Assembly: GCA_029834535.1 (NCBI GenBank)
Contig: JAQMWT010000373.1
Coordinates: 124,001-188,000 of the forward strand
Source of the DNA: Chrysophaeum taylorii
Lineage: Eukaryota; Sar; Pelagophyceae; Pelagomonadales; Pelagomonadaceae
Direction: 5' to 3'
DNA length: 64,000 bases
This document shows, one piece after another, positions 13,455 through 60,693 of this stretch; the first letter of the stretch is position 1; each line of letters opens with the position of its first letter. Made by a program: the position numbers and the translations under genes. The notes under the pieces were generated by a model. It had not been told where the DNA came from and searched no databases. It worked only from the letters and a program-made list of their open reading frames with translations.

Positions 13455-13507
13455 TTTGCGCTTTTCGGGGGGCTCTGAGTGGTGGTGACTGAGGGTTAGT
13501 TAGTTAG

Positions 13508-29041: not shown

Positions 29042-29066
29042 TATTATACTTCAATTGACTGACTCC

Positions 29067-34778: not shown

Positions 34779-34865
34779 TCCACGGTCGAGCCTGTGCTTG
34801 ACTTCGTGGCGACACCTCCTCGGCTTCAGTTCATTGCTACGTGTTCGGTCCGTTATCGTTTATCA

Positions 34866-39770: not shown

Positions 39771-40110
39771 TAACTAACTAACTAACTTCAGACCTCTCCC
39801 GAGCATGGGAGCCAGGCCGGACCGACAGGTGCCAGTCCGGAATCACGGGCCTGTAGACGAGGGGCGCCGAAAGGTGGGTCGGCGGAGAGTGATCATCAAG
39901 CTTGTCGCCATGCGACGAGGAGACCGCGATGTGACTGACAACCAACTCGTCGATAACCTTCCGTCTGCGCCCCCCGGCCATACCCCGTCCCACTGCGAAC
40001 GTTCCGGCTGCCAACCGGCCCGCCCGAGAGGCGAATAGGTGCCAACCTACGCCGGGAGGGCGGATGCCCTCGCAAGGCTCAGGATTCATGAGGCACCGTC
40101 CTCCATCGCA
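39771..40110. mobile_element. Short non-autonomous element, copy with inverted end
   Basis: The left end is TAACTAACTAACTAACTTCA followed by GACCTCTCCCGAGCATGGGA, the reverse complement of the right end of the copy at 45674-46020. From CCAGTCCGGAATCACGGG (about 39833) to CCTCCATCGCA (40110) the body runs in the same orientation as that copy, with about ten substitutions and the loss of its right end. An open frame on the minus strand (MNPEPCEGIRPPGVGW...) is present in both copies but has no domain. Confidence 0.65.
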
Positions 40111-40632
40111 GCCATGCGGTCGGCGATCAGTCCACGAAAACCACCACTTAAAGGGACATGATCAGGAGGCAGAGCGAGTCAATGCACAAGGGACCGAAGT
40201 CGAAACGACGTTTCGATCGTCGAAGGACGAGGCTGCGGCGAAGCCCTCGACTGTGCCTTGCTACCAGGGCCGAGGCCACTCATGAAAACTTGTTGTAAAC
40301 GGCTGCAATATCACGCATCTACACAATGATCGATCGCACTTCAGGCTCAGCAACATCGTTCCATCGAGATCCCGAGCCGGTCCGATGGATTAGGATCAGC
40401 ACCGACACGACTTAGGTCGACACACAGATTTCGTACGCACCAAGCACGTAGCGCCGTGTCCTGAAACACGTTGAGGAGGTAAGTCGGGTCATCGACGGAC
40501 GCGTCGTCACTCGCCGCGGCCTCGTGCGGACCCGCCAAGTCTCAAGGGTGTTCAGCAGGCCTCGTCATTTTAAAGCACAAACTAGAGTTTCAGAAGTTCG
40601 AGCCGAGCAAAAAGACACAGAGGCGCCTGCGT
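40111..40632. other. Intergenic, nothing recognised
   Basis: No coding or repeat signal is visible between the short element and sulfotransferase copy B. Confidence 0.4.
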
Positions 40633-41778
40633 TTATTGATATCCCCTTGCCCGAATGCAGTTCACTACTCGATCTCGAGAGGAGGCAGCGGCGAAGGCTT
40701 CGGCACGCTTCTCCGTCTTGATGTGAGTGTACACGTGTTGCAACCTCGAAAGTTCTGGATAGTCGTTGCTTTTGTTTTTGATGCCAGATAGGGCGGGAAA
40801 GGCGTGGTCGACGAGATTGGCGACGACCGTTTTCAGGGCTAGGGCTTCTTCTGCGACGGTACCGGAGTTTCCATCAACTTCTCGGCGCCTCTTCTCGTAG
40901 AAGCTTAAGAGCACGTCGTAGAGCGCGACGTCGAGCTCGAGGGTTTCGGGTAAGCGGTCGCGGACGAGAGTGCTAGGTTTGCTGATTTTCTTTTGCCCCT
41001 TCTGCTGGTCAACTGGATGGACTAGTGGAAGCGGAATAACGTCGCGAAAAGACCATTGGAAGCGCCGACGGAGGACGACGAGAGCTTCGTCGAGGCGTTC
41101 GAGCGGGACGACGAGGAGGCCCGCAGCAATCTCGAAGTGACGTCGGAGAGCCTGGATGTCAGAGATCGAGCGAAGGTGGAGATCCTGAGACAACGGATTC
41201 CACAAATTTTGGTCTTCGTCGTACTTCTTCCACGCGACGCCGTAGTAGTGGATCACCGATTCGAGGTGCGATGCCGGATCGCGAATAGGCAGAACGACCG
41301 CGACGTCCTCCCCGAAAACCTTGCGCCACATCTCGTAGGCCTCGAAAAACCAGCGGCCCGGCTCGGTCGTAGGACAATCGCGCATCGGCCACCATTGCCC
41401 GCGCGGGTAAACGTGGCGTACCGACATCTCGAAGCAACCGCTCGCGTTAACCCATCGCTCCAGCCTCTTCGGGCACTCCGCGTCCCTCCAGAGGTGGTCA
41501 CCATGGTTCATCACGCTCTCGGCGAATGAGGCGCCCAACCCAACGCCTGCCATCGCGATCACGCGCTCGATCGTAGACGACGCTGTCTTGTGCGTCTTCA
41601 TCAGCACAACCCGCCGATGTTTTTGCGCGCCTGCCGCCGGAAAACCGCAGTCGTTCGCCAACGCGGCCTCCAACCGACGCAACCTCTCGCGCCCCCACAT
41701 TCCATCTGCTTTCGAGATGCACGCCTCGTCGACGCCGCCGACGACCACTTTGGCTCCAACCACGATGAGGAGCCACAT
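40633..41778 (-). CDS. Sulfotransferase-like protein, copy B
   Basis: A 381-residue near-copy of the protein at 27839-29041, with the same PAPS-binding segments (MKTHKTASSTIERVI; LPIRDPASHLESVIHY). In the body the two differ at only a few residues, for example KVVVGG for KAVVGG, ANDCGF for ANDGGF, VIAMAG for VISMAG and YDVLLSF for YDALFSF. After LSRLQ the C termini diverge abruptly (HVYTHIKTEKRAEAFAAASS against FVYARINTEERVETIAAASS), and this copy ends 19 residues earlier. The start codon lies 25 bases from the 5' LTR of the Gypsy element. Both copies keep open frames and the cofactor-binding residues, so both could be functional. Confidence 0.75.
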   Translation of the reverse strand: MWLLIVVGAKVVVGGVDEACISKADGMWGRERLRRLEAALANDCGFPAAGAQKHRRVVLMKTHKTASSTIERVIAMAGVGLGASFAESVMNHGDHLWRDAECPKRLERWVNASGCFEMSVRHVYPRGQWWPMRDCPTTEPGRWFFEAYEMWRKVFGEDVAVVLPIRDPASHLESVIHYYGVAWKKYDEDQNLWNPLSQDLHLRSISDIQALRRHFEIAAGLLVVPLERLDEALVVLRRRFQWSFRDVIPLPLVHPVDQQKGQKKISKPSTLVRDRLPETLELDVALYDVLLSFYEKRRREVDGNSGTVAEEALALKTVVANLVDHAFPALSGIKNKSNDYPELSRLQHVYTHIKTEKRAEAFAAASSRDRVVNCIRARGYQ

Positions 41779-41803
41779 TATTATACTTCAATTGACTGAC
41801 TCC

Positions 41804-42131
41804 TGTGGTGGTGGAAACTCCCGCCTCCTAAGGCTTGCTTACCCCTCCTTTACAGCCCCTTCTTATCAGAAGCACCCCCTACTCCGTTCTGATGATGTCA
41901 GTTTTCTCTATGACATCATCTTCCCTGATTTCTGGTGCGATTCAAGTGTTCTTAATCATAAAGCAACAGACGATCCTCAAGTTGAGAGGACCAGGCACGG
42001 AAGTTGTGTTTGTGGTTGTGTGGCGAGAGAACGGCCTTCCACGTCCAGTGACTCGATAAAGGGCACGGGCGTGAGAAGCGAGCCTAGATTTGAAGGCGAG
42101 CCAGGTAGGCATAATTTCTTGTTACGCCACA
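41804..42131 (+). repeat. 5' LTR of the Gypsy-DNMT element
   Basis: 328 bases, TGTGGTGGTGG...TTACGCCACA. They align with the 3' LTR and the solo LTR at 29067. Confidence 0.92.
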
Positions 42132-42133
42132 GG

Positions 42134-42156
42134 TGGTGGAGGAATACGAGATTCGA
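42134..42156 (+). promoter_or_regulatory. tRNA primer-binding site
   Basis: Two bases after the LTR comes TGGTGGAGGAATACGAGA followed by TTCGA. Its reverse complement ends TTCCTCCACCA and contains TTCGAA-type T-loop sequence at the right distance from CCA. It therefore reads as the acceptor arm and T-loop side of a tRNA 3' end over 23 bases. The acceptor TTCCTCC is like that of some serine tRNAs. The identity is inferred, not checked against a local tRNA. Confidence 0.75.
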
Positions 42157-42534
42157 GCGACCATATCGGTCGCAGCGGACGAGTGCATCTTGCATTCTCT
42201 ACGCGGTCCGGACAAGCCGTGCGCGCCCTGATCAAGCGCGCCGACGAAGAGTTCGAGAGGGACCATCGCTGTGGGAAAGTTCCCCGGCCGGATACGCGTT
42301 AGTCGTCGGAGGTGACGACGCGCGGATCGGTTCGAGCCGACGTGCAACCCGGCTACCGCTGCCGCAGGCGAGCGGAGTGAGATCGCAACTCACTGAGGCA
42401 TTAATTTCCGGGCAGAGACGGATTCTGCCGCCCACCGGAACGGATAGATTAGTCGGGTGGAAGACGCACGCGGCGACGATATTGCGCGTGACGTGGACGA
42501 GTAGAAGTCCCAGAGTCGGAGGAACACGAGAACG

Positions 42535-42676
42535 ATGGCGACTCAGCCTTTTTGGACCCGTTCTGACTTTGGCCGATTGGAGCGAGTCGGAGCCGACATG
42601 GAGGAAGATGACGCTGCTGACGAGCAGATACGAGAAACCGAACCTTCAAGTCGTCCCGAGGGGACGAACGAACGGC

Positions 42677-42716
<40 letters not shown>

Positions 42717-45673
42717 GGAAGAAGGGCTGAACTACAACGGCGATGAACCGCCGAGGGCGCCGCCGGCGAGGCAACCGGCTGCCCATCCAGAACGTGCGCT
42801 AGACGATGAACCACCGAACGTTACAGAGATTTACGAAGCCCATTTACGCGAGATACGCCGGGAAAGTAAGCGCGCACAAGAGATCCTCATCCAGCTGATA
42901 GAAAAAGAGAATATGCGGCATGAATGGCTACACCAGAATGAGATAAAAGAAATGCAAGAGTAACTGCGGCACGAACACGCTCGATTAGATGAGATACATG
43001 AGCAAGTACGATGGTTGACCCGCGAGAGGGATGAGTTGCGTACGCCGAGTCGCTCGAGGCGAGCGAGCAGTCCTGAGGGAGAATTCCGACCCTCGGAGGA
43101 ACCGCCGCCTACACGAACGCGCGCGAAAGTTAGGAAGCCGCGCGACGACGACGACGAGTCGTCCGAGATGACCGAAACGTCGTTAATCTACGAGCAAGAG
43201 CCATCCAAGTCGAAGGAGCTCACCCAAACCAAAATCCCCACAGGATCGGAGAATCTGACCGAAACGTCGTTAAACTACGGGCCGAAGCCAACAACCGCTT
43301 CTGACACGGTGTCACCGTTTGTGGCACGATATGATTTGTCGTCAGCTGACACAACCCTTTGTTTTGACGACACGCCGGAGTTATGTTTGAATCCAATTTA
43401 CGAGCCCCGTGCAGCCGATGAAGCCCAGAGGAATGGACCCGCCGCTGCTACGCTCGATGCTATGAGTTTACCTCCGGACATTCAGGTGGATGACACTTCG
43501 TCTCCACGATCGATCAACGATGCGTCGCAGAGGATTATCTCGAATGATAAGCGCGCATCTGTTTACACGCCCATCGAACGTCACGTGCCCTTTGGTGGCT
43601 ATTTCTTGACAGACATGACGTCGGGGACGACGCCTTCTTCTTTTGCAGCCCCCCCCAACGAACCGATTGCAGACGTTTTTGCATACGCATTCTTCTTTTT
43701 GACGATGGCAGACATTTCGTGTGCCGACATTTTTAGTGACAAGACGATTGCCGATATTCTAAGCGATGGAGCGGATGATAGGCCGAGGGAAGCGGCCGAG
43801 AAAGTGGATACGAAATCTGAAGAGGTGAAGAACCTTATAATGCATGAACCGCCTTTGGAGCTCTGCGAAAGCCCTGGAGTATATATAGAGTTCAAAGAAT
43901 TTCAGCCGGCATATGATGATGGCTATGTGGGAAAGAAAGATCCCGAACAGACTATGAGGGATGAGTATAGCTGCCGCCCAGAATCGAATTTGGATGGGAC
44001 GATCAGCATGGATATGAGGAAGATGAGCGTGCCGATGATATGGATACGAGCTCACTATTTTCTGAGGAAGAAACCGCCAGAACGGAAAGAAGTACGATTC
44101 CGACCCCGAGGCATGGATTTATTTGCCAACGGAGAGTTAAATTACGTTTGGTCGGAGTTTTGGCAAGAAGACGACGCGTGTGTCGATGTTTCGATAGACG
44201 AGACGATTGAGGCAGTTCGAATAGGCTTGGGAGCACCAGTCGCCTACAGGGACGATCCAGAGATACTAGGACCTGTCGAACTGACGCCAGAGTGAGACAA
44301 AGATAACAAAAGCCCCAGTCGAAGTTCGCGCCGGCACAGACGACGCCGATCGCGCGACGACGAATACGACGGAGGCCGATACCAATATAATTTGGGTTCT
44401 TTGAGCGCTACGCTCGCGTTTACGACCCCGTGCGGTCAACAGTTACCATTAGGAGTGATGATGTACCCGAACACGGACACCCGCTCCGACGACGCAGCCG
44501 ACGCCCTTGCCGCGGCGGCATTCGAAGATCGTGCTCGTCCGCCGCCGGACGAGCCACCCAACGAAGTGCTGACCGACCGTCGGTCTTTGGCACGGGTTTA
44601 CGAGGAGATGTCGGGCGATGAACCCGAAGAGTCGAGCGATGATCTTGAAGCTCCACGATACTGGGAAGGCGATTCGGACTCGGAAGACGAAGAAGCCGCA
44701 CTTTGTGAACCAGTGCCCTCGATTACGTTACTTGGCAAGTCGTCCAAGGACGACCCACCGTTTGTTTTTGACGAGGAAGCCCTCGACGCTAACGGCCTAT
44801 CCTTGGATCCCCCCGAGATGACCTTTGGCGACCGGACTGGCAGCGAACCAGACATGGATTTCAGCAGCGATAGCACGGATGATCATTCGACAGATGAGAC
44901 GATGACCATTGCGAGTGATGCAGACGACGATCTTACGATAGAGTTGACGTCGGAGACGACGCCATCTTTTCCTGCGGACCCCCCCGAAACGGTTTCGGTT
45001 ACGACGGATCGAGCCACGGATACACCGCCGGAAGTAAAGGATGCGAAATCGAATAGTGCGTCGGACGAGAAGCTACGTGCACGGTCCGAAGACGAAAGGG
45101 ACGCTTCTCCAATTGAGCTATGCCTGGAATTGTCACCGCCAAGAGAAGAGAGCAGTGACGGCGTTGCCGGAGTCGAGCCGAACCCGACCGAAGAAGATGG
45201 ATGTATGAAGAAGATTAGCAGCGTTCTCGATTGGGACGAAGATGAGCCGACGTGGAACCCGCAGGATTGGTGGACGAGAACTCGGAACTTCTTGCTAAAG
45301 AAGCCACCAGAACGACCGCTCAGCTACGGAATCGAAGCCGCAGCCGACATGGAGCCGATCGGCACCGACTGTGACGATCAACCGATGACGAATGAATCTA
45401 CGGATGCATTCTGGAAAGACGAAATGAACGAGTTATGGGAGAGGTCCTTTGCTTCCGAGAACGCCGAAGACCAGGATCCCCTACCAGCATTGATTTCCTC
45501 CGAAATTGTCATGGAGGAAGAGCGGAAGCCACCAGATAAAGAGGCTGCCGCGAGCACTGCGTCGATGACGCCGACGACAGATGACACGAGAGCTCAAGCC
45601 GCGGTGTCGAAGCCCAACCCCGGCGACGAACGAGTCAGAGCCCAATGTTCTCACATTTCGTTGACGCCGCGAG
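42535..45673 (+). pseudogene. Gypsy gag-like acidic polyprotein, two in-frame stops
   Basis: A single reading frame runs from MATQPFWTRSDFGRLERVGA to the insertion point at 45673. It is broken only by TAA at 42961-42963 and TGA at 44293-44295. The first part has a run of about 12 Asp coded by a GAT/ATG repeat (42677-42715) and a coiled-coil-like segment (THLREIRRESKRAQEILIQL region). The rest is long, acidic and Ser/Thr/Pro-rich, with two similar modules (WWTRTRNFLLKKPPERP and IRAHYFLRKKPPERK). No CCHC knuckle was seen. The position after the primer-binding site makes it the gag region. I do not recognise the fold. Confidence 0.7.
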
Positions 45674-46020
45674 CCAGTCCGGAATCACGGGCCTGTAGAC
45701 GAGGAGCGCCGAAAGGTCGGTCGGCGGAGAGTGACCATCAAGCTTATCGCCATGCGACGAGGAGACCGCGATGTGACTGACAACCAACTCGTCGATAACC
45801 TTCCGTCTTCGCCCCCCGGCCATACCCCGTCCCACTGCGAACGTTCCGGCTGCCAACCGGCCCGCCCGGGAGGCGAATAGGTGCCAACCTACGCCGGGAG
45901 GGCGGATGCCCTCGCAAGGCTCAGGATTCATGAGGCACCGTCCTCCATCGCAACCGCAGTCGGCGTGCAGGGTCCGGCCTGGCTCCCATGCTCGGGAGAG
46001 GTCTGAAGTTAGTTAGTTAG
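45674..46020 (+). mobile_element. 347-bp non-autonomous element inserted in gag, 17-bp target duplication
   Basis: Begins CCAGTCCGGAATCACGGGCC and ends GTCTGAAGTTAGTTAGTTAG. The exact 17-base string TTCGTTGACGCCGCGAG precedes it (45657-45673) and follows it (46021-46037). A long target duplication and a short simple-repeat tail (TTAG)n favour a SINE/LINE-type insertion. It is related to the copy at 39771-40110 and the end fragment at 33681. Confidence 0.8.
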
Positions 46021-46525
46021 TTCGTTGACGCCGCGAGATGGCAAGACTATCGAAGATGATTTGGTTACCCTCCGTTGTTTGGATACGGGTACTCTTACGT
46101 TTATGGTCTTTCACATCTACAGGAATCGTGACGGACCAAAATTCTCGACGACCATCGGTGTCGATGGAATGGCAGATGTTTCTTATATTTGGCGCGAAAT
46201 GGTCAGAAAGTCGGCCAAAGATAAGTTGATTTTCGATGAAGGCGAGCTTCCGATTAAGCGCAAGCTATATGGATCGGGGTTGAATACGACGACGATCTAT
46301 CGTTGGGTCGCGATCCGGGTTGCCCTCGCCGACGACATCGCTGCCCCCATTGTCGCTATTGTGGCCGACACCAACTATCTGTTCCTGTTGGGAGGGCACG
46401 ATATCCGAGTTTTAGGAGCCGTCGTGGACTACCCCCACGATCGGATCTGTTTTATCGAACCCAAGTCGTCTACCGACGCAAGAAGATTTAAGTCAAGGGT
46501 GAACGAGTCGATGCACCCATTGTGA
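46021..46525 (+). pseudogene. Retropepsin-like region of the Gypsy polyprotein
   Basis: Continues the gag frame across the target duplication (both copies of the 17 bases are in the same codon phase for LTPR). It reads KFSTTIGVDGMADVSYIWRE, then YLFLLGGHDIRVLGAVVDYP and DRICFIEP. The second part fits the retropepsin C-terminal signature (LxGxDxLRxLGxxxDYxxxxIxF). The catalytic position that should be D-[ST]-G-A reads D-G-M-A, so activity is doubtful. The frame stops at 46525, and the protein continues one frame over. Confidence 0.6.
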
Positions 46526-47177
46526 CCTTTCGATCTGTTTACGATCGAGACCCGATAACCGAGCCGATTTACAATCATCAGCACGACGACTTTCGGTAGA
46601 GTCTCGACCTGGTCAAGACTCGAGTTTACGCTCGTCTGAGCACGGTTAAAGATCTCCGCAGCCCGCCGCCAGAACGAGCGGTAGCCTTGGCGACGCGGGG
46701 ACATTCTACGACCAAACTCTCCCTAGCTCCGGCAGAAGCCGCGCAGGAAGTAGTTGCTTACGATGCGCGCACGTTGCGAATCGAGCCCGGTCGAACGTAC
46801 AATTTACCGGTTATTTTGTCGAATCCTATGGAAAAAGGACAGGTCTTCGTCGCTACGTTTGCTGCAAACGAGCAGTTGGGAGTTGTCGAAGGGATGTGTT
46901 CTTCTTGCGAAGAGCACGACAGGTCATCTGCTCGCGTGGCTGTTACTTCCATACAAGAAGTGCCGACGGTCGTCACTCAAGGCGAGGTTCTCGCAATTGG
47001 CGACATCGTTCGGTACGAAGATGAGTTGAACGTTTCTACGATCATCGAGCTTATGAAAGAATGTGAAGAAGGGTACGACAAGGGGAGTCTTTCCTTCACC
47101 GTTTCCGTCGCTAGTCACTTGACGTGCTGCGATGAATCTCCCCCGCCGATGTTCAGAAGGACGCTCCAGCCGCCGCT
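46526..47177 (+). pseudogene. Linker of the Gypsy polyprotein between protease and methyltransferase
   Basis: The frame starting near 46501 (ERVDAPIVTFRSVYDRDP) has one TAG at about 46597. It is then open through TYNLPVILSNPMEKGQVFVA and GEVLAIGDIVRYEDELNVST to 47334. It leaves register with the methyltransferase frame at a C-rich string near 47140. No domain was recognised. The segment is beta-rich and could be a chromatin- or capsid-related module. Confidence 0.6.
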
Positions 47178-48248
47178 GTGGGCGTGTCTTCCCCCAAACG
47201 ACCTAAGCAAGACGACGATTTCGCTCGACGGTCTGAAGAAGATGAGAAAAAGTGCCGCGAGATCACCGAAGCGGAGATCCGCCTCCGATACGAAAAGGCT
47301 CAATGGCTTCCGATCACTTATCGCAAGGTGGTGATGCTGTTCAGTGGAGCCGGGGGCAGCACTTTATGTCTCCAACGAGCCAACGAAATGTGTAGGACGT
47401 CGTTTCGAGTAGTCGTGTTAGCACTCGATGCGTCGGACACCGCCAACAAGATTCGCCGCAAGAACTTTCCGAATATTCCTATGGTGCAGCACACGCTTTG
47501 TGGTCGCTATGTTACAACCCTACGGTTGATCGAATCTTATTTACCTTACGCGGAATGGTCGTCGTCGATGTGTATCGCGTCGCCACCCTGCGTACACTCC
47601 GCTCTGTGCAACTTGACTTCCAGAGAGGCTGGGAAGGGAGTCACCGCTAACCACTGGACGATGAAATTATGCAAGATGGCTGGTTTCTTCATGTGGTTGA
47701 TAGAGCGGGAGGCCTCGATTATTTCTTATGCTGCGCGTTTGCACCCTTACGTGTACGTCGTCAATTTCTACGACATAACGCCCAGTTTGATGAGCTGTCG
47801 CGTGCGGTTGTTGGTTTCCAGCCATCCGCTCCATTTGCGCGCAGTTCCCAAGACTTGCAAGAATATGCAACAAGAGTTCGCCGCTGCGCTTGGCTACGCA
47901 GACGAACGGCATTTACTTCAGATGAACAATTTTGGATCATCACGAGCCGCGACAGACGCAGCTTATACCGTTACGCGTGTCCCGCTTCGCGTAGGACCGC
48001 ACCGTTCCGATTACAGATCCCTGAATCTGAAAATGACTTCGGAGTCGCTGACGATGCCCCTTGATTTTGATTGGGCCGGCTTCTCCAGGACGACCTCGTT
48101 GAAACACTTGGCGTCCGTCGTGCCACCAGACACGATGGCTTTATTAGTACTCGATCTGCTCAACTCTGTGACCAAGGATTTTCACTTGAGCGGCGAGGCT
48201 TTGCCGTCCGCGTTGAGTCCTCCAGACCAACCGTTCGATTATTATTAG
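47178..48248 (+). CDS. C5-cytosine DNA methyltransferase domain inside the Gypsy element
   Basis: A 356-codon open frame. Motif I, the AdoMet-binding turn, is VVMLFSGAGGSTLCLQRANE (residues 51-70; canonical DLFxGxGGxxxG). Motif II/III region is LALDASDTANKIRRKNFPNI (81-100), where canonical enzymes have an acidic residue and A-x-x-x-x-x-NFP. Motif IV, with the catalytic cysteine, is IASPPCVHSALC (residues 133-144; PPC). A motif-VIII-like stretch is DITPSLMSCRVRLLVSSHPL (199-218), and a motif-X-like stretch is LKHLASVVPPDTMALLVLDL (308-327; canonical GNxVPP). A clear ENV (motif VI) was not found; LIERE at 174-178 is the only candidate. The domain sits in pol between protease and reverse transcriptase. 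The frame starts with GTG because it is an internal polyprotein part. Confidence 0.82.
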   Translation: MGVSSPKRPKQDDDFARRSEEDEKKCREITEAEIRLRYEKAQWLPITYRKVVMLFSGAGGSTLCLQRANEMCRTSFRVVVLALDASDTANKIRRKNFPNIPMVQHTLCGRYVTTLRLIESYLPYAEWSSSMCIASPPCVHSALCNLTSREAGKGVTANHWTMKLCKMAGFFMWLIEREASIISYAARLHPYVYVVNFYDITPSLMSCRVRLLVSSHPLHLRAVPKTCKNMQQEFAAALGYADERHLLQMNNFGSSRAATDAAYTVTRVPLRVGPHRSDYRSLNLKMTSESLTMPLDFDWAGFSRTTSLKHLASVVPPDTMALLVLDLLNSVTKDFHLSGEALPSALSPPDQPFDYY

Positions 48249-48867
48249 CAAATCGATGAAACCACCCTTCGTCACGTACAAGTTCCGCTGCTAAACACGC
48301 GCACACGTGTCGTAAGATGGGTGTCTACTGATGATCTCCAAGATCGCTCCAAATGGAAACCTCCAGAGGTGCCGTTGATTCCGCCTGCAACAGATGAGCC
48401 GGGGACCTCTCATGCTTCTTCTGCTGCCGCCCCCCGACAACCAAATTTGGACGTTCCGCCAGATCCTGAGCGAGATCGGGAACCGAAGATTAAGAGCGAG
48501 CCGAGCGTTCGTGTCAAAGGCGAGAAGATCAAAAAAAGCCACTAGGAAGTGAGATTAAAATACGAGAATAAGTTCGATGTGCCATGGAAAGACGCGCCGC
48601 GCGATGCTGAGGGTGCACCGCTGCGGCAAACCCCCGAGCATGTCAAGGATAACCCCGTTATGAACGTGAAGATTCCTACGAAGGAAGAAGCTGACAAGGT
48701 TGTTCAGGAGCTTGGAATTCCTGACAATCCGCAGTTAGATGACGATGCGAAGCTGATGCTCCGTCACTGTGTGCAATACTCTTGGGCCTTTTTCGACCCG
48801 ATTATGAAACCTGTGGACTCGCCTCCTGTGTCTGCGATTCAAAGACGCGAATCCGCGACCGATTAAG
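48249..48867 (+). pseudogene. Linker between methyltransferase and reverse transcriptase
   Basis: Same frame as the methyltransferase, interrupted by TAG at 48246-48248 and at 48543-48545. It contains a Pro-rich stretch (RSKWKPPEVPLIPPATDEPG) and then the typical pre-RT region (DPIMKPVDSPPVSAIQ). The frame shifts near 48840 into the reverse transcriptase frame. Confidence 0.7.
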
Positions 48868-50592
48868 ATGACGCCCTACCGACTGACGCTTGCGAAGCTC
48901 GATTGTCTCCGCAAGCAGATCAGTGAGTGGTGTCGGGATGGAGTCATTCGCCCGGCCAACTCACCTTGGGGCTTTCCTGTCTTGATGCTTCCCAAGAAAG
49001 GAGCTGAGATTGGAACGTCAAACGCGTTCCGTGCTGCAGTTGACTTACGTCAGCTCAACGATCAATTGGTCAATGACAGTTGGCCGAACATTCGACAAGA
49101 CGATGCTTTAGCTTTTCTCGCCATGCGACGCTGGCGGACATGCATTGATATTAGATGGGGATACCACAACCTTCGTCTGGATCCGGCAGCGCAAGACGCT
49201 GTCACGATGGTTAGCCCACTTGGCGCTCATAGTTTCTTGCGATTACCTCGGGGTGTGAAGACGGCCGGAGCTCTTTTCTGCAAGCAAATGGCGAGCGATC
49301 TTTCGAAATGGATGTATCGAGACTTGGTTGCGTATGTTGATGATATTATGATGGGATCCGATGATCTTCATCGACACTTACAAGTTTTGATCGAAGTTAT
49401 GTGTCATTTGGCACAGAGAGGGCACGGCGGTCGAACCGCAAAGTCCCACCTTCTCAAGGATGATATAGAATTTCTGGGACACATTTCGACCCCAGGAGGC
49501 TTAAAGCCGAATCCGAAGACGCTGGAAGCACTGCAGAAGATGCCGATTCCAGGTACTTTACCGAAGACTTCTCCGAAGACCCAGGTACGATCTTTCATCG
49601 GCATGAGCAATTACTGCCGGCGATATGTGAAAGGCTACGCGAAGATCGTGGAACCGCTGAGACGATTATGTCTCGAAGGCGTAAAGTTCGAGTGGACGCC
49701 CGAGTATCGAAAAGCTTGGGATGCGATTATTGAAGCTTTGGTTGATTCCAGAGGAGTCTACCACCCCGATTATGATCTGCCCTTTCAGATCCGATCCGAT
49801 GCTTCCAAGGATGGACTTGGAGCATATCTCTTCCAGATTGTCGAAGTCAAGGACAAGGCAGGAAAAGTGACTCGAGAAGAAAGAGTGATTGAATACTGGA
49901 GCCGAGCCGTGCCGAAGGAGATGCGCAATTATGAGCCCCGTCGACTGGAGCTGCTTGCAGTTATCCTTTCTCTGGAGCACTATCGAGCCTATATCGAAGG
50001 GCACCGGACTGTTTTGGAGGCCGATCACCGAAATTTGACGTTTTTACGTAAGGCGACGCACTCGTCTGGGCAGCTTGCTCGTAGGGCGATGCGCCTCGCC
50101 AACATTGACCCTGAACTTGGTTACAAGCCGGGAAAGTCACCGGGAATGAGTATCCCTGACTGTCTCTCCCGCAATCCGATAGATCATGTCATCGAGACTG
50201 ACGAGTTTGGAGAGCCTTTGAACCACGCTTATTTGGTGTTTCAAGAGCTTTCCCGACCTACTGATGACCAAGGAATTCCTGCATCCGGCTGTCACTTCGT
50301 ATTGTCGTTTGTCACGACCGAACTGCCGGAAGACGAGGAAGAAGATCCCGAAAAAGATCCGATGAGATTGGCTACGTCTCACGCTACGAGACAACGTCGG
50401 AAGAACCGCGTGCGCGATGAGCCGCAGGTCTTCAAGGACGCAGCCGCTTACCAGGATTATATTGATAAAATTCCCGATAATATGACGCTCGCCGAAATCG
50501 CACGTGAGCAAGAATCTGATGCTACTTGCGAGGATATTCGCTATCGGATGGCCCAAGGTCAGACGCCGCGACGTTCTCGAGCGAACGAATGA
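48868..50592 (+). CDS. Gypsy reverse transcriptase-RNase H
   Basis: 574 open codons. RT motifs: WGFPVLMLPKKG (34-45), FRAAVDLRQLNDQ (54-66), CIDIRWGYHNLRLDP with catalytic Asp (92-106), LPRGVKTAGALFCKQM (126-141) and VAYVDDIMMGSDD with the YVDD box (154-166). Then come the thumb/connection SFIGMSNYCRRYVKGYAKIV and RNase H: QIRSDASKDGLGAYLFQ (Asp 311), RRLELLAVILSLEHYRAYIE (Glu) and TVLEADHRNLTFL (Asp). All catalytic carboxylates are kept, so this part is intact. The C-terminal part is acidic linker toward integrase. The translation start is nominal, because the true upstream protein joins through a frameshift near 48840. Confidence 0.94.
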   Translation: MTPYRLTLAKLDCLRKQISEWCRDGVIRPANSPWGFPVLMLPKKGAEIGTSNAFRAAVDLRQLNDQLVNDSWPNIRQDDALAFLAMRRWRTCIDIRWGYHNLRLDPAAQDAVTMVSPLGAHSFLRLPRGVKTAGALFCKQMASDLSKWMYRDLVAYVDDIMMGSDDLHRHLQVLIEVMCHLAQRGHGGRTAKSHLLKDDIEFLGHISTPGGLKPNPKTLEALQKMPIPGTLPKTSPKTQVRSFIGMSNYCRRYVKGYAKIVEPLRRLCLEGVKFEWTPEYRKAWDAIIEALVDSRGVYHPDYDLPFQIRSDASKDGLGAYLFQIVEVKDKAGKVTREERVIEYWSRAVPKEMRNYEPRRLELLAVILSLEHYRAYIEGHRTVLEADHRNLTFLRKATHSSGQLARRAMRLANIDPELGYKPGKSPGMSIPDCLSRNPIDHVIETDEFGEPLNHAYLVFQELSRPTDDQGIPASGCHFVLSFVTTELPEDEEEDPEKDPMRLATSHATRQRRKNRVRDEPQVFKDAAAYQDYIDKIPDNMTLAEIAREQESDATCEDIRYRMAQGQTPRRSRANE

Positions 50593-50601
50593 TATGAAGC
50601 T

Positions 50602-52210
50602 GTGAAAGACATTATTTACCGCATTTCTGCTGATTTGCACCCGATGATTGTGGCCCCTGCCACGTTGCGTAAGCGCATTATTCGACTCTACCATGACACT
50701 CCGGTTAACGGTGGTCATATGGGACGTCACAGTACTGTCCAGGCTATCCAAGAACGATTTTGGTGGCCCCACATGTCGAACGAAGTCGGAGTCTTCATTG
50801 CTGAATGTTTTGTTGCCAGAAAGCTCGTACGCCCGAGCCGAAACGAGCTGGACTCTTGCAACAGCCTGTCTACGATGGTGATGGCGCTGTTCTATGCATG
50901 GATTTATTTGGACCTTTGTCCAGCGCTGGTCCCGAGACGTATCTTCTATTGTTTTTTGATCTGTTCTCGCACTTCTTGATTTTGGATGTTTTGAACGATA
51001 AGACTGCTGAGTCCGTTCTCGAGTCTTTGTCATTAACATCCTCCTCAAGGGCTACTTGCCCCAGATGATTCGTACCGACAACGGAAAAGAGTTCGTGAAC
51101 AAGTTGATGCGCGAGTTTTCCCATCTCTTCAACACACGATACCAAACTACGATTCCCTATCATGCCCATTCGAACCCTGCTGAGCGTGTGAACCGATTTA
51201 TCGAGGCCTTCCTCCGTGCCTGCCTTCAGGGCCGGAAAATCACGGATTGGCCTGACTTTGCCCACTATATCGCGTTTTGCTACAACCGCAAGTTTATTCC
51301 AGGCACGCGCAGATTTCTCCCTTTATGCTACGCCTGACTCGTCAGCCGATGTTACCGACTGACTACACGCTTATGGACTTTGATACCCGACTGCTGCCAG
51401 AGACTCGTTCTGATGCAGTCGCTGAAACTCGTGAACGATTGAAGTATTATACGAAGATCGTCCGCGAAGCTCGTGATAAGGCTTTGAAGAAACAACGATT
51501 GGCCTACAACGCCGATCATGTCGATGTTGAATACAAGGAAGAATCGCATGTTTTGCTCTACATTCCTTTCCTTCAGAACAAGCTTCGACCGGAATGGCGA
51601 GGACCTTTTATTATCAAGGAACGCCTATCCCCGGTCACCTATAGGATTGAGTCTCTCGACTCCCCGCCCGAAGAACGACGTGTTCATGTTAGTCAGATCA
51701 CGCCTGTGATGGTACCCCCGATCATTGATCAAGCCATCCGCAAACCCGAAGAAACCTTACGTGATGATTGATTATCAGCACGGTAAGTTTGTTGTCTTCC
51801 GGATTCCTGACCGGAAGCGCTCTGATTGGCGCAAAAAGGTCTATGTTGCTGAAGTTTACGAGCCTTACGATTACCAGAATGATCGTGTTGCTCTACATTT
51901 CTATTCCGATTTGGGTCCGAACGATGATGTCGCTTATTTCAAGCCGACCTCTCACCTTTCGAACCGCAAGCTCAAGCCTGAGTACAAGGACGTTGACGGT
52001 CGCAGTTTCACCGACAAGTCCAAGATCTCATCCAGCACAACTCCTTGTGTCACGGATTTCGCTCCGCACGAGATTGATGTGTTGGTCCCCAAGTTTACTT
52101 TACGCAGTGGTCGCGTTCCGAACCGATCATCGCCCACGTTTACAAGAAGATTCGTTCACGAGATGCTCGTAAGGCGAAGCCGCGCTCCTCGCGCTAGCCG
52201 CTCGCTGAGG
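50602..52210 (+). pseudogene. Gypsy integrase, broken by frameshifts
   Basis: Successive frames give the HHCC region (LYHDTPVNGGHMGRHSTVQA then IQERFWWPHMSNEVGVFIAE; the CxxC pair is damaged, CFVARKL), the core first Asp (VLCMDLFGPLSSAGPETYLL, 50805-51068 frame) and the second Asp and Glu (MIRTDNGKEF; SNPAERVNRFIEAF, 51056-51337 frame). The 51277-51771 frame has a C-terminal SH3-like region (LRPEWRGPFIIKERLSPVTY). A further frame to about 52210 carries a chromodomain-position segment (YQHGKFVVFRIPDRKRSDW). At least four frameshifts make the integrase non-functional. Confidence 0.85.
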
Positions 52211-52237
52211 CAGCTCGAATTCTCACCAGGGGAGTCC

Positions 52238-52551
52238 TGTGGCGGAAACTCCCGCCTCCTAAGGCTTACCCCTCCTTTAGGGCCCCCTCTTATCAGGGGC
52301 ACCCTACTCCGTTCTGATGATGTCAGTTTTCTCTATGACATCATCTTCCCTGATTTGTGCGATTCAAGTGTTCTTAATCATAAAGCAACAGCCGATCCTC
52401 AAGTTGAGAGGACCAGGCACGGAAGTTGTTTGTGGTTGTGTGGCGAGAGAACGGCTTTCCACGTCCTGCGACTCGATCAAGGGCACGGACGTGAGCGGCG
52501 AGCCTAGATTTGAAGGTGAGCCAGGTAGGCATAATTTCCTGTTACGCCACA
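52238..52551 (+). repeat. 3' LTR of the Gypsy-DNMT element
   Basis: 314 bases, TGTGGCGGAAACTCC...GTTACGCCACA, preceded by a purine run (AGGGGAG, 52229-52235) that could be the polypurine tract. Compared with the 5' LTR it lacks several short strings, for example GTG near the start and TTGC after AAGGC. Confidence 0.92.
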
Positions 52552-53143: not shown

Positions 53144-56137
53144 TTACGCACGTGTCGTCCTTGCAAATATTTGCAGCCTGGCCCGGAGATAAGAGTCTTG
53201 TTCTCGCTCACCGTCGAGAGCGCCCCATTCAAAGAAAGGAATGTGGGCAACGTCCCAGCCAAGCCGCCGCAACAGTCGGGACTTGAAGCGCGTAGGACCG
53301 TTCTCGATCCTCGTTCTCTCGAGATAGTGGGATGGCCCGTCGACTTCGACCGCGCGCTTTGCGTCTGGTTGAGCCATGTCGAGCGACAATCCCTCTTCAG
53401 TCACGTGCTCGAAGACGTGCGTCCACCCAACTCGGTCGAGCGCGGTCGCAACGTTGCGTTGGAACTGGGACGGTGTTGGGTCCTGGCATTGATGTGCCGC
53501 CAGGAGCATCTGCTGGTGGTTCGACAGCGGCCAGCTCCGGTCGGGCCACTCAAGATTAAAGTGCACTGAGGCAAGGTGGAGCTGCGACAAAAGGTGATCA
53601 TCGAGGGTATCGAGATCTGCCACAACGAGAAATGCGATCTCGGCGAAAATCCCGGGGTCATTATTCCAGTCGACGCAGGCAAATGCCCACGCAGCGTTGG
53701 CGAGCTCCTGCGGATTGAACTCGCCCAGCCGCGAAGGGACCGTACCGGCTATCGCCGCGAGAAGCTGTGGTGCCTCGATGCCCGACTTCGCGAAGGCCCA
53801 CACCGTGTTGGCGAGGTCCTGCGCGTTGAATTCGCCCAGCCGTGAAGGGGCCGCGCCGGCGATTGCCGCAAAAAGCTGTGGTGCCTCGATGCTCGCCATC
53901 GCGAAGGCCCACGCCGTGTTGGCGAGCTCCTGCGGATTGAACTCGCCTAGCCGCGAAGGGGCAGCGCCAGCGATCGCCGCAAAAAGCTGCGGTGCCTCGA
54001 TGCCCGCCGTCGCGAAGGCCCACGCCGTGTTGGCGAGGTCCTGCGGATTGAACTCGCCCAGCCGCGAAGGGACCGCCCTGGAGATCGCCGCGAATAACAG
54101 TGGTGCCTTAATGCGTGCCTTCGCGAAGGCCCACGCCGTGTTGGCGAGCTGTCGCGGGTTGAACTCGCCAAGCCGCGAAGGGACCGCGCCGGCAATCGCC
54201 ACGAAGAGCTGCGGTGCCTCGATGCGTGCCGTCGCGAAGGCCCACGCCGTGTTGGCGAGCTCCTGCGGCTTGAACTCGCCAAGCCGCGAAGGGACCGCGC
54301 CGGCGATCGCCACGAAGAGCTGTGGTGCCTCGATGCGTGTCGTGGCGAATGCCCACGACGTGTTGGCGAGCGCCTGCGGATCGAACTCGCCAAGCCGCGA
54401 AGGGACCGCGCCGGCGATCGCCGCAAAAAGCTGCGGTGCCTCGATGCCTGCCGTCGCGAAGGCCCACGCCGTGTTGGCGAGCGCCTGCGAATTGAACTCG
54501 CCCAGCCGCGAAGGGGCCGCGCCGGCTATCGCGACAAAGAGTCGTGGTGCATCGATGCCCGCCGTCGCGAAGGCCCAAGCTGTGTTGGCGAGGTTCTGCG
54601 GGTTGAACTCGCGAAGCCGCGAAGGGACCGTGCCAGCGATCGCCGCGAAGAGCTGCGGTGCCTCAATGCCTGCTGTCGCGAAGGCCCACGCCGTGTTGGC
54701 GAGCGCCTGCGGATTGAACTCCCCGAGCCGCGAAGGGGCTGCGCCAGCGATCGCCACGAAGAGCTTTGGTGCCTTGATGCCCGCCGTCGCGAAGGCCCAC
54801 GCCATGTTGGCGAGGTTCTGCGGATTGAACTCGCGAAGCCGCGAAGGGACCGCGCCGGCGATCGCCGCGAAAAGCTGTGGAGCCTCGATGCCTGCCGTGG
54901 CGAAGGCCCACGCCGTGTTGGCGAGCTCCTGTGGATTGAACTCCTCCAGCCGCGAAGGGGCCGCGCCGGCGATCGCCGCGTAAAGGTGTGGTGCCTCGAT
55001 GCCCGCCGTCGCGAAGGCCCACGCAGTGTTGGCAAGCTCTTGCGGATTGAACTCGCCAAGCCGAAAAGGGACCGCGCCGGCGATCGCCACGAAGAGCTGC
55101 GGTGCCTCGATGCCTGCCGTCGCGAAGGCCCACGCAGTGTTGGCGAGGTTCTGCGGCTTGAACTCGCCAAGCCGCGAAGGGACCGCGCCGGCGATCGCCA
55201 CGAAGAGCTGCGGTGCCTCGATGCGTGCCGTCGCAAACGCCCACGCCGTGTTGGCGAGCTCCTGCGGCTTGAACTCGTCAAGCCGCGAAGGGACCGCGCC
55301 GGCGATCGCCACGAAGAGCTGCGGTGCCTCGATGCGTGCCGTCGCGAAGGCCCACGCCGTGTTGGCGAGCTGTTGCGGATGGAACTTGTGGATGCAGCGC
55401 TGACAAGCGTCTGCGAGGGCCGTCACGCGGCGATCGCGTCGCACGTCGCGGTTTCGGCCTCCAAACTTGGCAACACGGTGCGCCGCAGTCGACAAGTTCC
55501 GAGCATCGAATTTGTCGCCTCGAGCCGCGAAGAGTGATAGAATCGTTTCGGGAGTTGCACCGCGGCCCGTCATCTGTTTCCCCCACTCAACTTGTTGCCA
55601 TCGCGGTGCCTCGGAACTGCTGGCTCGCGTGTGGCTCGAGCGAGCGTCGATGCCGCGACGGTCATTGCGGCTGGAGTCGCCGCGGCGCTGCGTGTTACCT
55701 CCTCGTCGCGCCGGCGACTGAGATCGGTGCCAGTCTTGACCGTCGCGCCTCGGGTTGCCGTTCGCGCCAGACTGTCGTCGCCTCGGCGACCGAGAGCGGT
55801 GCGCCAAGTCTGGACTGTTGCGCCAGGCGCCCCCGGGACACATGTCGTCGGCGTGGTTAGGGATTCGTCGTATCGGGGACTGCAAACGGCTTCTATGGTC
55901 TCGATCGGCGCGCCACCGGTCGTCTCGCCCCTGGCGGTCTTCGCACCTCCGACGGTTTACCCTTTGTGGTAGTGGTGGCGCTCGTCGTCGCGTCGAACCT
56001 ACCGCACCTCTCGTTTTTTTACAGGGCGACCGTCGTCGCCAGCTCACTATATCAGTATAAACTAAACGGATCGCAAGAAACGGGAAGTTCAATGTGCGTC
56101 CCCTGCGTCGGTCGGTTACGGTGTTCTTCCGCCGCAT
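53144..56137 (-). CDS. OPR/HPR-type helical-repeat protein with RAP domain, copy 2 (15 repeats)
   Basis: From the first ATG (56137) the protein is 997 residues. A basic N terminus is followed by an Arg/Ser-rich segment (RSRSPRRRQSGANGNPRRDG), then MTGRGATPETILSLFAARGD. Next come 15 full 37-residue repeats (LANTAWAFATAGIEAPQLF type) plus a partial one, the linker and the RAP domain (KRAVEVDGPSHYLERTRIEN; FFEWGALDGEREQDSYLRAR). The whole chain is in one frame, so this is the best candidate for the functional member. Such proteins bind organelle RNA and promote its cleavage, stability or translation. The first 45 residues have no counterpart in copy 1, because homology stops near 56023. An in-frame TTG at 56194 was not used. 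Confidence 0.9.
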   Translation of the reverse strand: MRRKNTVTDRRRGRTLNFPFLAIRLVYTDIVSWRRRSPCKKTRGAVGSTRRRAPPLPQRVNRRRCEDRQGRDDRWRADRDHRSRLQSPIRRIPNHADDMCPGGAWRNSPDLAHRSRSPRRRQSGANGNPRRDGQDWHRSQSPARRGGNTQRRGDSSRNDRRGIDARSSHTRASSSEAPRWQQVEWGKQMTGRGATPETILSLFAARGDKFDARNLSTAAHRVAKFGGRNRDVRRDRRVTALADACQRCIHKFHPQQLANTAWAFATARIEAPQLFVAIAGAVPSRLDEFKPQELANTAWAFATARIEAPQLFVAIAGAVPSRLGEFKPQNLANTAWAFATAGIEAPQLFVAIAGAVPFRLGEFNPQELANTAWAFATAGIEAPHLYAAIAGAAPSRLEEFNPQELANTAWAFATAGIEAPQLFAAIAGAVPSRLREFNPQNLANMAWAFATAGIKAPKLFVAIAGAAPSRLGEFNPQALANTAWAFATAGIEAPQLFAAIAGTVPSRLREFNPQNLANTAWAFATAGIDAPRLFVAIAGAAPSRLGEFNSQALANTAWAFATAGIEAPQLFAAIAGAVPSRLGEFDPQALANTSWAFATTRIEAPQLFVAIAGAVPSRLGEFKPQELANTAWAFATARIEAPQLFVAIAGAVPSRLGEFNPRQLANTAWAFAKARIKAPLLFAAISRAVPSRLGEFNPQDLANTAWAFATAGIEAPQLFAAIAGAAPSRLGEFNPQELANTAWAFAMASIEAPQLFAAIAGAAPSRLGEFNAQDLANTVWAFAKSGIEAPQLLAAIAGTVPSRLGEFNPQELANAAWAFACVDWNNDPGIFAEIAFLVVADLDTLDDHLLSQLHLASVHFNLEWPDRSWPLSNHQQMLLAAHQCQDPTPSQFQRNVATALDRVGWTHVFEHVTEEGLSLDMAQPDAKRAVEVDGPSHYLERTRIENGPTRFKSRLLRRLGWDVAHIPFFEWGALDGEREQDSYLRARLQIFARTTRA

Positions 56138-56385
56138 TTTCTTTTTGCGTGCTAGAAAGAGAAAATTATCTATAGGACGCAACACTGCTTCCAAACCAGG
56201 AAAGAAAGAAGATAAAGAACAAAGATTAAGCCGTAAGCAACTTTACTAATAAACTTGCTAGAAAGAGAAATTACCTATAGGACGCAAGACTGCTTAGGAC
56301 GTCTTCCGGTTTTTTTTTCTCGCGGTGAACCGCGTCATGGCTCGCGCCTCCGTGAGAGCGACGGCGGACCGCCGCGCGGCCCGCG

Positions 56386-58275: not shown

Positions 58276-60693
58276 TTACGCACGTGTCGTCCTCGCAAAT
58301 ATTTGCAGCCTGGCCCGGAGATAAGAGTCTTGTTCTCGCTCGCCGTCGAGAGCGCCCCATTCAAAGAAAGGAATGTGGGCAACGTCCCAGCCAAGCCGCC
58401 GCAACAGTCGGGACTTGAAGCGCGTAGGACCGTTCTCGATCCTCGTTCTCTTGAGATAGTGGGATGGCCCGTCGACTTCGACCGCGCGCTTTGTGTCTGT
58501 TTGAGCCGTGTCGAGCGACAATCCCTCTTCAGTCACGTGCTCGAAGACGTGCGTCCACCCACCTCGGTCGAGCGCGGTCGCAACGTCGCGTTGGAACTGG
58601 GACGGTTTTGGGTCCTGGCGTAGATATGCAGCCAGGAGCATCTGCTGGTGGTTTGACAGCGGGTAGCTCCGGTCGGGCCATTCAAGATTAAAACCCAGTG
58701 AGGCAAGGTGGAGCTGCGACAAATGGTGATAATCGAAGTTATCGAGATCTGCTGCCGCAGCGCGAAACGCAATCTCGGCGAAAATCCCGAGGTCCTTTTT
58801 CCAGTCGACGCAGGCAAATGCCCAAGCAGTGTTGGCGAGGTCCTGCTGATTGAACTCGTCCAGCCGCGAAGGTGCCGCGCCGGCAATCGCCGCGAAAAGC
58901 TGTGGTGCCTCGATCCCTATAGCCGTCGCGAAGGCCCAAGCCGTGTTGGCGAGGTCCTGCGGATGGAACTCGCCCAGCCGCAAATGGGCCGCGCCGGCAA
59001 TCGCCGCGAAAAGCTGTGGTGCCTCGATGCCCGCTGCTGCGAAGGCCCACGACGTGCTGGCGAGGTCCTGTGGATTGAACTCGCCTAGCCGAGAAGGGGC
59101 CGCGCCGGCGATCGACGCGAAGAGTCGCGGTGCGTCTATACCCGCCGTCGCGAAGGAGCCGCGGCGGCGATCGACGCAAAAAGCTGTGGTGCCTCGATGC
59201 CCGCCGTCGTGAAGGCCCACGCCGTGTTGGCGAGCTCCTGCGAATTGAACTCGTCCAGCCGCGAAGGAGCCGCGGCGGCGATCGCCGCAAAAAGCTGTGG
59301 TGCCTCGATGCCCGCTGTTGAGAAGGCCCACGTCGTGTTAGAGAGTGCCTGCGGATTGAACTTGTCCAGCCGCCGCGAAGGAGCCGCGCCGGCTATCGCC
59401 GCGAAAAGCTGTGGTGCCTCGATGCCAGCCGTCGCGCGAAGGCCCACGCCGTATTGGCGAGGTTTTGCGGATTGAACTCCTCCAGCCGTGAAGCGGCCGC
59501 GCCGGCGATCGCCGCGAAAAGCTTTGGCGCCGTGATGCCTGCTGTCGCGAAGGCCCGTGCCGTGTTGGCGAGGTTCTGGGGATTGAACTCGCCCAGCCGC
59601 GATAATGCCGTGCCAGCGATCGCCGCGAAAAGCTGCGGTGCCTCGATGCCTGCCGTCGCGAAGGCCCGTGCCGTGTTGGCGAGGTTCTGGGGATTGAACT
59701 CGCCCAGCCGCGATAATGCCGTGCCAGCGATCGCCACGAAGAGCTGCGGTGCATCGATGCGTGCCGTCGCGAAGGCCCACGCCGTGTTGGCGAGGTCCTG
59801 AGGATTGAACTCGCCAAGCCGCGAAGGGACCGCGCCGGCGATCACCACGAAGAGCTGCGGTGCCTCGACGCGTGCCGTCGCGAAGGCCCACGCCGTGTTG
59901 GCGAGCGCCTGCTGATTGAACTCGTCCAGCCGCGAAGGTGCCGCGCCGGCAATCGCCGCGAAAAGCTGTGGTGCCTCGATCCCTATAGCCGTCGCGAAGG
60001 CCCACGCCGTGTTGGCGAGGTCCTGCGACTTGAAATCCCCCAGCCGCGAAGGTACCGCGCCGGCGATCGCCACGAAGAAGAGCTGCGGTGCGTCTATACC
60101 CGCCGTCGCGAAGGCCCACGCCGTGTTGGCGAGGTCCTGCGGATTGAACTTGTGGATGCAGCGCAGACAAGCGTCTGCGAGGGCCATCACGCGGCGATCG
60201 CGTCGCACGTCGCGGGTTTGGCCCCCACAAAGTTGGCAACGCCACCGGTGCGCCGGAGTCGCCAAGTTCCGAGCATCGAATTTGTCGCCTCGTCGAGCCG
60301 CGAAGAGTGATAGAATCGTTTCGGGAGTTGCACCGCGGCCTGTCATCTGTTTCCCCCACTCAACTTGTTGGCATCGCGGTGCCTCGGAACTGCTGGCTCG
60401 CGCGCGGGGGCTCGAGCGAGCGTCGACGCCGCATTGCGGCAAGCGTCGCCGCGGCGCTGCGTGTTGTTACCTCCTTGTCGTGCCGGCGATCGGCGCCAGT
60501 CTCGACCGTCGCGCTGCAGGTAGTCGTTCGCGCCAGACAGTCGTCGCCTCGGCGACCGAGAGCGGCGCACCGAGCCTGCTGGACCGTCGTCGCGCCACCC
60601 GTCCCCGGGGCACACGTCGTCGTCGGCGAGGTTAGGGATTCGTCGTATCGGGGACTGCAAACGGCTTCTTTTTGGTCTCGATCGGCGCGCCAC
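58276..60693 (-). pseudogene. OPR/HPR-type repeat protein with RAP domain, copy 3 (broken)
   Basis: The same architecture as copies 1 and 2 but in several frames. The Arg/Ser-rich N terminus is at 60343-60693. The conserved start MTGRGATPETILSLFAARRG and about eight repeats are in the 59393-60442 frame. Further repeats lie in the 59136-60359 frame, and the last repeats, linker and RAP domain (KRAVEVDGPSHYLKRTRIEN) in the 58276-59331 frame. Breaks are a 2-base GC insertion at 59431-59440 and a deletion junction at 59149-59156. Several single-codon insertions keep frame (for example AIGIEAP). The RAP domain itself is intact. Repeats are more diverged from each other than in copies 1 and 2. Confidence 0.85.

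Follow-up and report, generated by a model that had tools for sequence, protein, structure and literature searches.

Cytosine methyltransferases carried by retroelements are known from dinoflagellates and a charophyte, and the system closest to the one reported here is KnitGypsy-Dnmt3 of Klebsormidium nitens, presented in the sections of de Mendoza et al. that deal with it as a Gypsy Pol fusion with an in-frame C5-cytosine methyltransferase (C5-MTase) (PMC5890265). The first-pass annotation of our locus had pointed to dinoflagellate and charophyte precedents, rightly, but the kinship is closer than it supposed, KnitGypsy-Dnmt3 being itself a gypsy Pol fusion. The two families have in common a gypsy Pol, an in-frame C5-MTase, several copies and purifying selection (PMC5890265). 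In KnitGypsy-Dnmt3, however, the methyltransferase is a Dnmt3, the repeats are arranged as in DIRS elements (Fig. 4c legend) and copies are fewer than in Symbiodinium (PMC5890265), whereas in our family the window copy and the contig C5 copy have direct LTRs of plain structure, DIRS-like repeats being absent, the methyltransferase is long-stemmed with no DNMT3 among its weak structure matches, and hundreds of matches are listed.

The same sections describe two further systems from dinoflagellates. SymbioDIRS-Dnmt3, like the present family, has its methyltransferase in Pol beside the reverse transcriptase (RT), but it belongs to the DIRS class and has a tyrosine recombinase where our family has an rve integrase and LTRs; its domains carried out de novo CG methylation in yeast, while KnitGypsy-Dnmt3 and SymbioLINE-Dnmt showed no activity there, a result that the authors termed inconclusive (PMC5890265). 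SymbioLINE-Dnmt is likewise a high-copy retroelement with a methyltransferase outside the classical DNMT families, and differs in being a LINE, with the methyltransferase mostly in a separate upstream ORF and with no pre-integration cDNA (PMC5890265). The Ectocarpus Sola1 transposon, as a passage of PMC12477816 describes it, is also a stramenopile mobile element with a DNA methyltransferase; unlike our family it is a DNA transposon, and its enzyme is an N4/N6 methyltransferase in a gene of its own, together with a ParB-like protein. A passage of PMC12344493 names 'LTR Copia and DIRS' where the 2018 paper (PMC5890265) says Gypsy, and is ambiguous as to whether a copia case is meant. In the literature searched, with bioRxiv and most subscription journals lying outside it, we found no report of cytosine methyltransferases in stramenopile LTR retrotransposons. 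DNMT-bearing gypsy elements are already known; what we describe here is plain LTRs, a methyltransferase of unplaced type, three high-copy lineages and a copia counterpart, apparently of separate origin.

The element in the window

The window, by which we mean the whole stretch of 64,000 nucleotides analysed (contig C373:124001-188000), belongs to a genome of 70.8 Mb in 697 contigs. The host had been taken for a stramenopile alga, and the single rbcL gene, on contig C697, agrees, its closest matches among solved structures being chains that we take to be diatom enzymes; the alga is probably an ochrophyte. A Ty3/gypsy LTR element spans 41804-52551 of the window and has a C5-cytosine methyltransferase (DNMT) domain in its pol:

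41804-42131 (+): 5' LTR, ends TGTGG...CCACA, read directly
42505-45658 (+): gag with the N-terminal polyprotein region, an interrupted frame in the window copy
45674-46022 (unstranded): 349-bp insertion with (GTTA)n at its end, flanked by a target duplication of 15 bp, CGTTGACGCCGCGAG, at 45659-45673 and 46023-46037
46013-46525 (+): frame with a protease-like region (VDGMAD ... LLGGHDIRVLG), so named from its position and by eye alone
47136-48248 (+): DNMT frame of 370 codons (P0001 = 47178-48248, 356 codons), recognized by its open frame, motifs and profile matches
48808-50592 (+): RT and RNase H frame (RVT_1 1.4e-12, RT_RNaseH 2e-22)
50593-50979 (+): integrase zinc-binding domain, H2C2 (PF17921 2.6e-15)
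51011-51337 (+): integrase core, partial (rve 4.2e-5, under its cut-off)
51256-51771 (+): integrase C-terminal region (Integrase_p58_C 7e-7)
52238-52551 (+): 3' LTR, paired with the 5' LTR, ends read directly

The LTRs are direct, plain repeats (297/324 identity, gaps counted), and RT-RNase H stands ahead of integrase in pol, as in Ty3/gypsy elements. The LTR pair, RT, RNase H, the integrase zinc-binding domain and the sub-cut-off integrase core, in gypsy order, bear out the earlier assignment of an LTR-bounded Ty3/Gypsy element; in the C49 copy the rve match reaches 2.1e-12. A guessed primer sequence found no match as tRNA primer site. Both gag and integrase frames are broken in the window copy, as the first-pass annotation had said. 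The gag region lies in three open pieces (42505-42963, 42964-44295 and 44296-45780), of which the first, the only one scanned, has no Pfam match over the cut-off, and it forms with the N-terminal region one continuous frame in the C5 copy. The DNMT frame had been placed between a protease-like region and RT: the RT side is firm by its RVT_1 match, but the protease-like frame has no Pfam match, its pattern having been seen by eye.

The 349-bp insertion is probably a short retroposon, and it has a relative at 39772-40113, the pair, of about 350 bp, being direct over most of its length with one end inverted. Elsewhere in the window, the open frame at 34802-36220 (+) weakly resembles a caulimovirus coat domain (E 0.0095, short of the cut-off) and is perhaps the gag of another retroelement. 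A RAP-domain protein at 53147-56242 (-) has many 37-residue repeats, seen in the DNA as a 111-bp period with 15 copies at 53568-55421, and the regions at 30006-33653 (-) and 58279-60466 (-) look by eye like its paralogues. Two frames, at 27842-29050 (-) and 40636-41787 (-), have near-identical starts, which suggests a duplicated gene; the latter matches galactose-3-O-sulfotransferase (PF06990, 5.4e-11). The RNA polymerase large subunit at 9375-13499 (-), with Rpb1 domains 1-5, occupies one 1375-codon frame, and at least some host genes are therefore without introns.

Identity of the methyltransferase domain

Every motif named in the first-pass annotation is present in the open frame: LFSGAGG at residues 54-60, KNFPN at 95-99, PPC at 136-138 and VVPPD at 314-318. 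The following assignments draw on alignment A3, which holds nine sequences from three lineages, 40-81% identical to its first row; motifs VI-VIII were positioned by alignment only.

47337-47357 (+): motif I, LFSGAGG (AdoMet); F and GAGG invariant in the nine A3 sequences
47583-47591 (+): motif IV, PPC (catalytic Cys); invariant in A3, HMM-aligned
47703-47711 (+): motif VI-like ERE, proposed catalytic Glu; EQE in most copies
47799-47807 (+): motif VIII-like RVR; RxR invariant in A3, aligned with QxRxR
48117-48131 (+): motif X-like VVPPD; aligned with GNAVPPL, PF00145 positions 261-321 matching in the lineage 3 copy L093

Motif I, the catalytic PC of motif IV and the RxR of motif VIII are all present and in order. 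Motif VI reads EQE (ERE in the window copy) in place of ENV, with the Glu kept, and motif X is without GN, since AS or GS precedes the V/M-VPP stretch, with VPP kept. Invariant throughout A3 are F43, G45-G48 (GAGG), D71, P123-P124-C125 and E163-Q164, and further R195, R197, T251, V252 and R254 (TVxR) and V302-P303-P304. From its spacing and its conservation in lineage 3, which is 40% identical, we infer that E163 is the motif VI Glu.

The first-pass annotation had proposed an HMM search of 47178-48248, and the outcome is carried by the relatives of the window copy. Taken as METHYLTRANSFERASE, that copy by itself is doubtful by Pfam (PF00145 E=0.055, 13.3 bits versus a cut-off of 22). PF00145 is matched at E<=1 by 10/10 members of alignment A1, which comprises nine sister copies and the window copy (best 4.4e-6), and the sister copy L025 lies above the cut-off at 25.4 bits. 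Both lineage 3 copies scanned, L090 and L093, exceed it too (37.4 and 37.9 bits; 2.7e-9 and 1.8e-9), each with two PF00145 stretches; the best stretch of one copy covers motifs I-IV, that of the other IX-X. Because these divergent copies match PF00145, we regard the DNMT identity as settled.

Six reference enzymes, four from phages and two from host genes, were used for a C5-MTase HMM, which gave the window copy 12.8 bits over residues 50-139, from motif I through PPC, and four other copies 19.5-20.6 bits over the same motifs, scores that 0/1000 shuffles reached in each case; with two further phage enzymes, chosen as the sole phage matches, it gave 25.7-26.7 bits. Past motif II, the domain of lineages 1 and 2 scores weakly when taken alone (8-22/1000 shuffles reach the score), and motifs IX-X alone are reached by 0-8/1000. 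Among phage records, two proteins annotated as DNA methyltransferases match the domain of lineage 2 (E 0.03 and 0.2), and a viral-contig scan with the gypsy domain gave no match. Two protein homology searches with the gypsy domain gave none at E 1e-3 among the proteins scored, in a method that needs shared exact words and may exclude records from the same or near genomes. Against solved structures, the best match of the A1 profile has E 0.11 (DNMT2); the weak best matches overall are DNMT2/TRDMT1 (E 0.11-0.25), with no DNMT3 among them, and neither the A3 profile nor the copia profile A2 had a match at E<=0.1. A single-sequence AlphaFold2 model of the domain has a pLDDT of 33. Homology, place and invariant residues agree with the earlier proposal that a Ty3/gypsy element captured a C5-MTase, and we hold the anatomy of the element and the identity of the domain as a C5-cytosine methyltransferase to be close to certain.

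Copies in three gypsy lineages and selection on the domain

A genome search with P0001 returned at least 114 matches (114/1049 candidates scored), some of them pieces of one copy; among the matches listed, most are 82-93% identical (lineage 1) and 16 are 76-78% identical (lineage 2). Lineage 3, first recognized in the sequence preceding an RNase H match on contig C553, accounts for at least 135 of 150 matches listed, at 69-100% identity (150/664 candidates scored), the remaining 15, at 48-51%, being lineages 1-2; here too, some matches belong to one and the same copy. The order protease-like region, DNMT, RT is the same in all three. Intact copies with this order, which the first-pass annotation had suggested seeking, exist on contig C5 as two open frames of 3063 and 3067 codons, each including DNMT and RT; the first, read through, runs from gag to integrase, and its LTRs are 98.2% identical over 341 bases.

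Among 74 listed RT matches, 38 have a listed DNMT match upstream on the same strand, at 259-765 (mostly about 585) bases, and 36 have none; all five of these 36 that were read retain a broken or rearranged DNMT, and six further stretches without a listed DNMT, taken from 150 RNase H matches, all retain the whole or part of it. The remnants comprise about the last 51 residues in L084, a domain without about its first 100 residues in L048 and one with its N-terminal part inverted in L049, others being frameshifted. Related elements lacking the domain, which the first-pass annotation had named as grounds for seeing an unrelated linker, did not appear: 11/11 upstream stretches read keep at least a piece, in a check that covered 5/36 unpaired RT matches and families that are close gypsy relatives.

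In 39 lineage 1-2 copies C125, E163, R195 and R197 are unchanged throughout, and PPC and RxR vary just twice, by one P124L and one V196A. The DNMT of lineage 1 differs from that of lineage 2 by a median dN of 0.113 and dS of 2.01, hence a dN/dS of about 0.06, with dS saturated (about 2). Against one lineage 2 copy the ratio is 0.060 for DNMT (a figure that includes 5/38 pairs within lineage 2), 0.031 for RT and 0.130 for the protease-like region. The branch leading to the window copy itself has ratios of 0.19, 0.15 and 0.25, respectively, and was therefore probably passed for the most part in lineages that were replicating. The within-family ratio, 0.156, is biased downward because the lineage 1 copies were picked by DNMT similarity. 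Identity between lineages 1 and 3 is 41% for DNMT, 28% for the protease-like region and 61-68% for RT, and the linker after DNMT is alignable over about half or less of its length. These substitution ratios indicate that the DNMT is under purifying selection (dN/dS about 0.06-0.19), approaching that on RT, and the C5-MTase domain belongs to the gypsy-family Pol as a fixed constituent, kept by selection, between the protease-like region and RT. The well-preserved frame had earlier been read as a hint of longer constraint. The constraint itself is upheld by dN/dS and the A3 invariants, but the preserved frame of a single copy is weak evidence for it, because the window DNMT has one codon more beside motif II as well as other substitutions, and the 349-bp insertion lies elsewhere in the element.

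A copia family and the host methyltransferases

A PF00145 search of the genome gave at least 57 matches (123/474 candidates scored), namely two host genes and 55 matches that belong to a second family, family B, of which 38 overlap the family B list, 15 match by tblastn and two (L003 and L005) align. An example at C96:63096-68951 (L042:3597-9452) is a single 1952-residue frame with, in order, a protease-like LIDGGAS, DNA_methylase at 349-475 (1.1e-7), rve at 1016-1110 (below its own cut-off) and RVT_2 at 1686-1933 (1.6e-38); integrase before RVT_2 marks the family as Ty1/copia. Its methyltransferase has PCQ, ENV and then, past an insertion of very large size that separates motifs VIII and IX, NAV (by eye and alignment). 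At least 103 matches to family B were found (95/697 candidates scored), fragments of one copy being counted separately in some cases; one match lies just outside the window (C373:192643-193875). The copia methyltransferase sits at the same step of Pol as the gypsy one, after the protease-like part. A protein search with the copia domain gave none at E 1e-3 and a viral-contig scan gave none. The methyltransferase-bearing copia family in the same genome is new here.

One capture common to gypsy and copia finds no support, as profile comparison gave a probability of 0.3% and the two form separate long-stemmed clades in a tree of 15 rows, which has long branches and unsure deep placement and is without a Dnmt3 reference. 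By these comparisons the copia C5-MTase is apparently a capture independent of the gypsy one; a very old common source may nonetheless lie behind both, because the deep placement is unsettled. The earlier description of the locus as a further capture was thus correct as to capture and understated, there being three gypsy lineages and an apparently independent copia capture.

Non-transposon C5-MTases among the matches listed are one DNMT2-like and one DNMT5 gene only. The former encodes 360 residues (PF00145 4.1e-19) and is presumably a DNMT2, a label that we attach on account of a PPCQP motif; a viral-contig scan with it gave no match. The latter, on contig C621, encodes a 2086-residue DNMT5-type protein (MTase 9.1e-17, SNF2 3.3e-13), which shares the C5-MTase superfamily with the retroelement enzymes but is a host gene with SNF2 and groups with neither of them in the 15-row tree, where deep branches are unsure. 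At least 12 matches to TIGR00675 (122/327 candidates scored) are the same two host genes and ten family B copies. No host DNMT1, DNMT3 or DNMT6 is among the PF00145 and TIGR00675 matches listed, which is not proof of absence, because lineage 3 copies that pass PF00145 were also missed and introns split genes.

The CpG observed/expected ratio is 1.28 in the window element and 1.28 and 1.34 in its flanks. Across 27 copies (27/30, with L029, L031 and L037 left out for large gaps), transitions do not occur more often at CpG than at other places. An element ratio equal to that of the flanks and the lack of excess transitions thus give no sign of long-standing CG methylation with deamination, a footprint that is silent on short-lived marks, efficient repair and other sequence contexts. 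Family B and lineage 3 stretches have ratios of 0.99-1.04 versus 1.26 and 1.41 in two host-gene stretches, with composition and coding constraint uncontrolled.

Discussion

We propose that the DNMT domain would be carried with RT into the particle and would methylate cytosines in the element's freshly synthesized DNA, either ahead of integration or as it takes place; the new copy would arrive marked as host-like DNA, or would pass its marks to a host maintenance enzyme. A precedent that would support such a mechanism for the window DNMT is the de novo CG methylation by SymbioDIRS-Dnmt3 in yeast. Against it we weighed EQE in place of ENV, the missing GN, the weak structure matches and the lack of a CpG footprint, and we also counted the silence of KnitGypsy-Dnmt3 in yeast. 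Overall, the odds that the gypsy DNMT methylates the element's own new DNA seem to us evenly balanced. In a host with a DNMT5-type gene, the elements could be a main source of new methylation, because DNMT5 of Cryptococcus, in the part of PMC10538959 that treats it, maintains methylation and lacks de novo activity. The copia methyltransferase need not share the gypsy one's job. More tentative, and rather unlikely in our view, is the wider picture in which two unrelated LTR classes captured different C5-MTases at the same Pol step, the host keeps only the maintenance enzyme DNMT5, and retroelements are the main or only source of new cytosine methylation, the host copying the marks.

Other activities could be assigned to the domain. 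Many copies in a small genome and the possible lack of host de novo enzymes (among the matches listed) would suit an enzyme whose target is the host chromatin in and around insertion sites, where it would dampen or shape silencing, and not the element's own cDNA; however, no chromatin-targeting domain is among the Pfam matches of the pieces scanned and the DNA flanking the window element is not CpG-depleted, and we think such a role unlikely. Methylation of RNA, be it element RNA or the tRNA primer, in the manner of DNMT2, would fit the weak structure matches to DNMT2/TRDMT1 and the missing CpG mutation footprint in element DNA, and de Mendoza et al., in the portion concerned, discuss RNA methylation for SymbioLINE-Dnmt (PMC5890265). 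Yet DNMT2/TRDMT1 match only motifs I-II with the profile, or up to motif IV with the single sequence, and the place beside RT in an LTR element, which makes its DNA ahead of integration, suits DNA equally well; RNA is to our mind a distinctly unlikely substrate.

The departures in motifs VI and X, together with the extra codon and substitutions of the window copy, could also mean that catalysis has been lost and that the domain is retained to bind DNA or RNA or for a structural role. This we judge improbable: PPC, E163 and RxR are invariant in nine sequences from three lineages, down to about 40% identity, and E163 is constant in the 39 lineage 1-2 copies with their two changes in PPC and RxR. 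Scarcely credible is an unrelated linker with chance motifs, a reading that the sub-cut-off Pfam score of the window copy and the two homology searches without a scored protein at E 1e-3 would allow, but that is refuted by the PF00145 matches in A1 (10/10) and lineage 3, the C5-MTase HMM with its 0/1000 shuffles and the A3 invariants; a true linker, the one after the DNMT, is alignable over only about half or less in lineage 3.

Cytosine methylation often silences transposons. If their DNMT does methylate the DNA that they newly make, these elements may write the very mark that usually silences them. A further eukaryotic lineage with methyltransferase-bearing elements, and two apparently unrelated captures in one genome, point to a repeatable advantage rather than an accident. 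Moreover, in a compact genome where hundreds of copies are listed and where, among the matches listed, DNMT5 is the host's only enzyme for DNA, one could ask directly how new methylation arises under a maintenance-only host.
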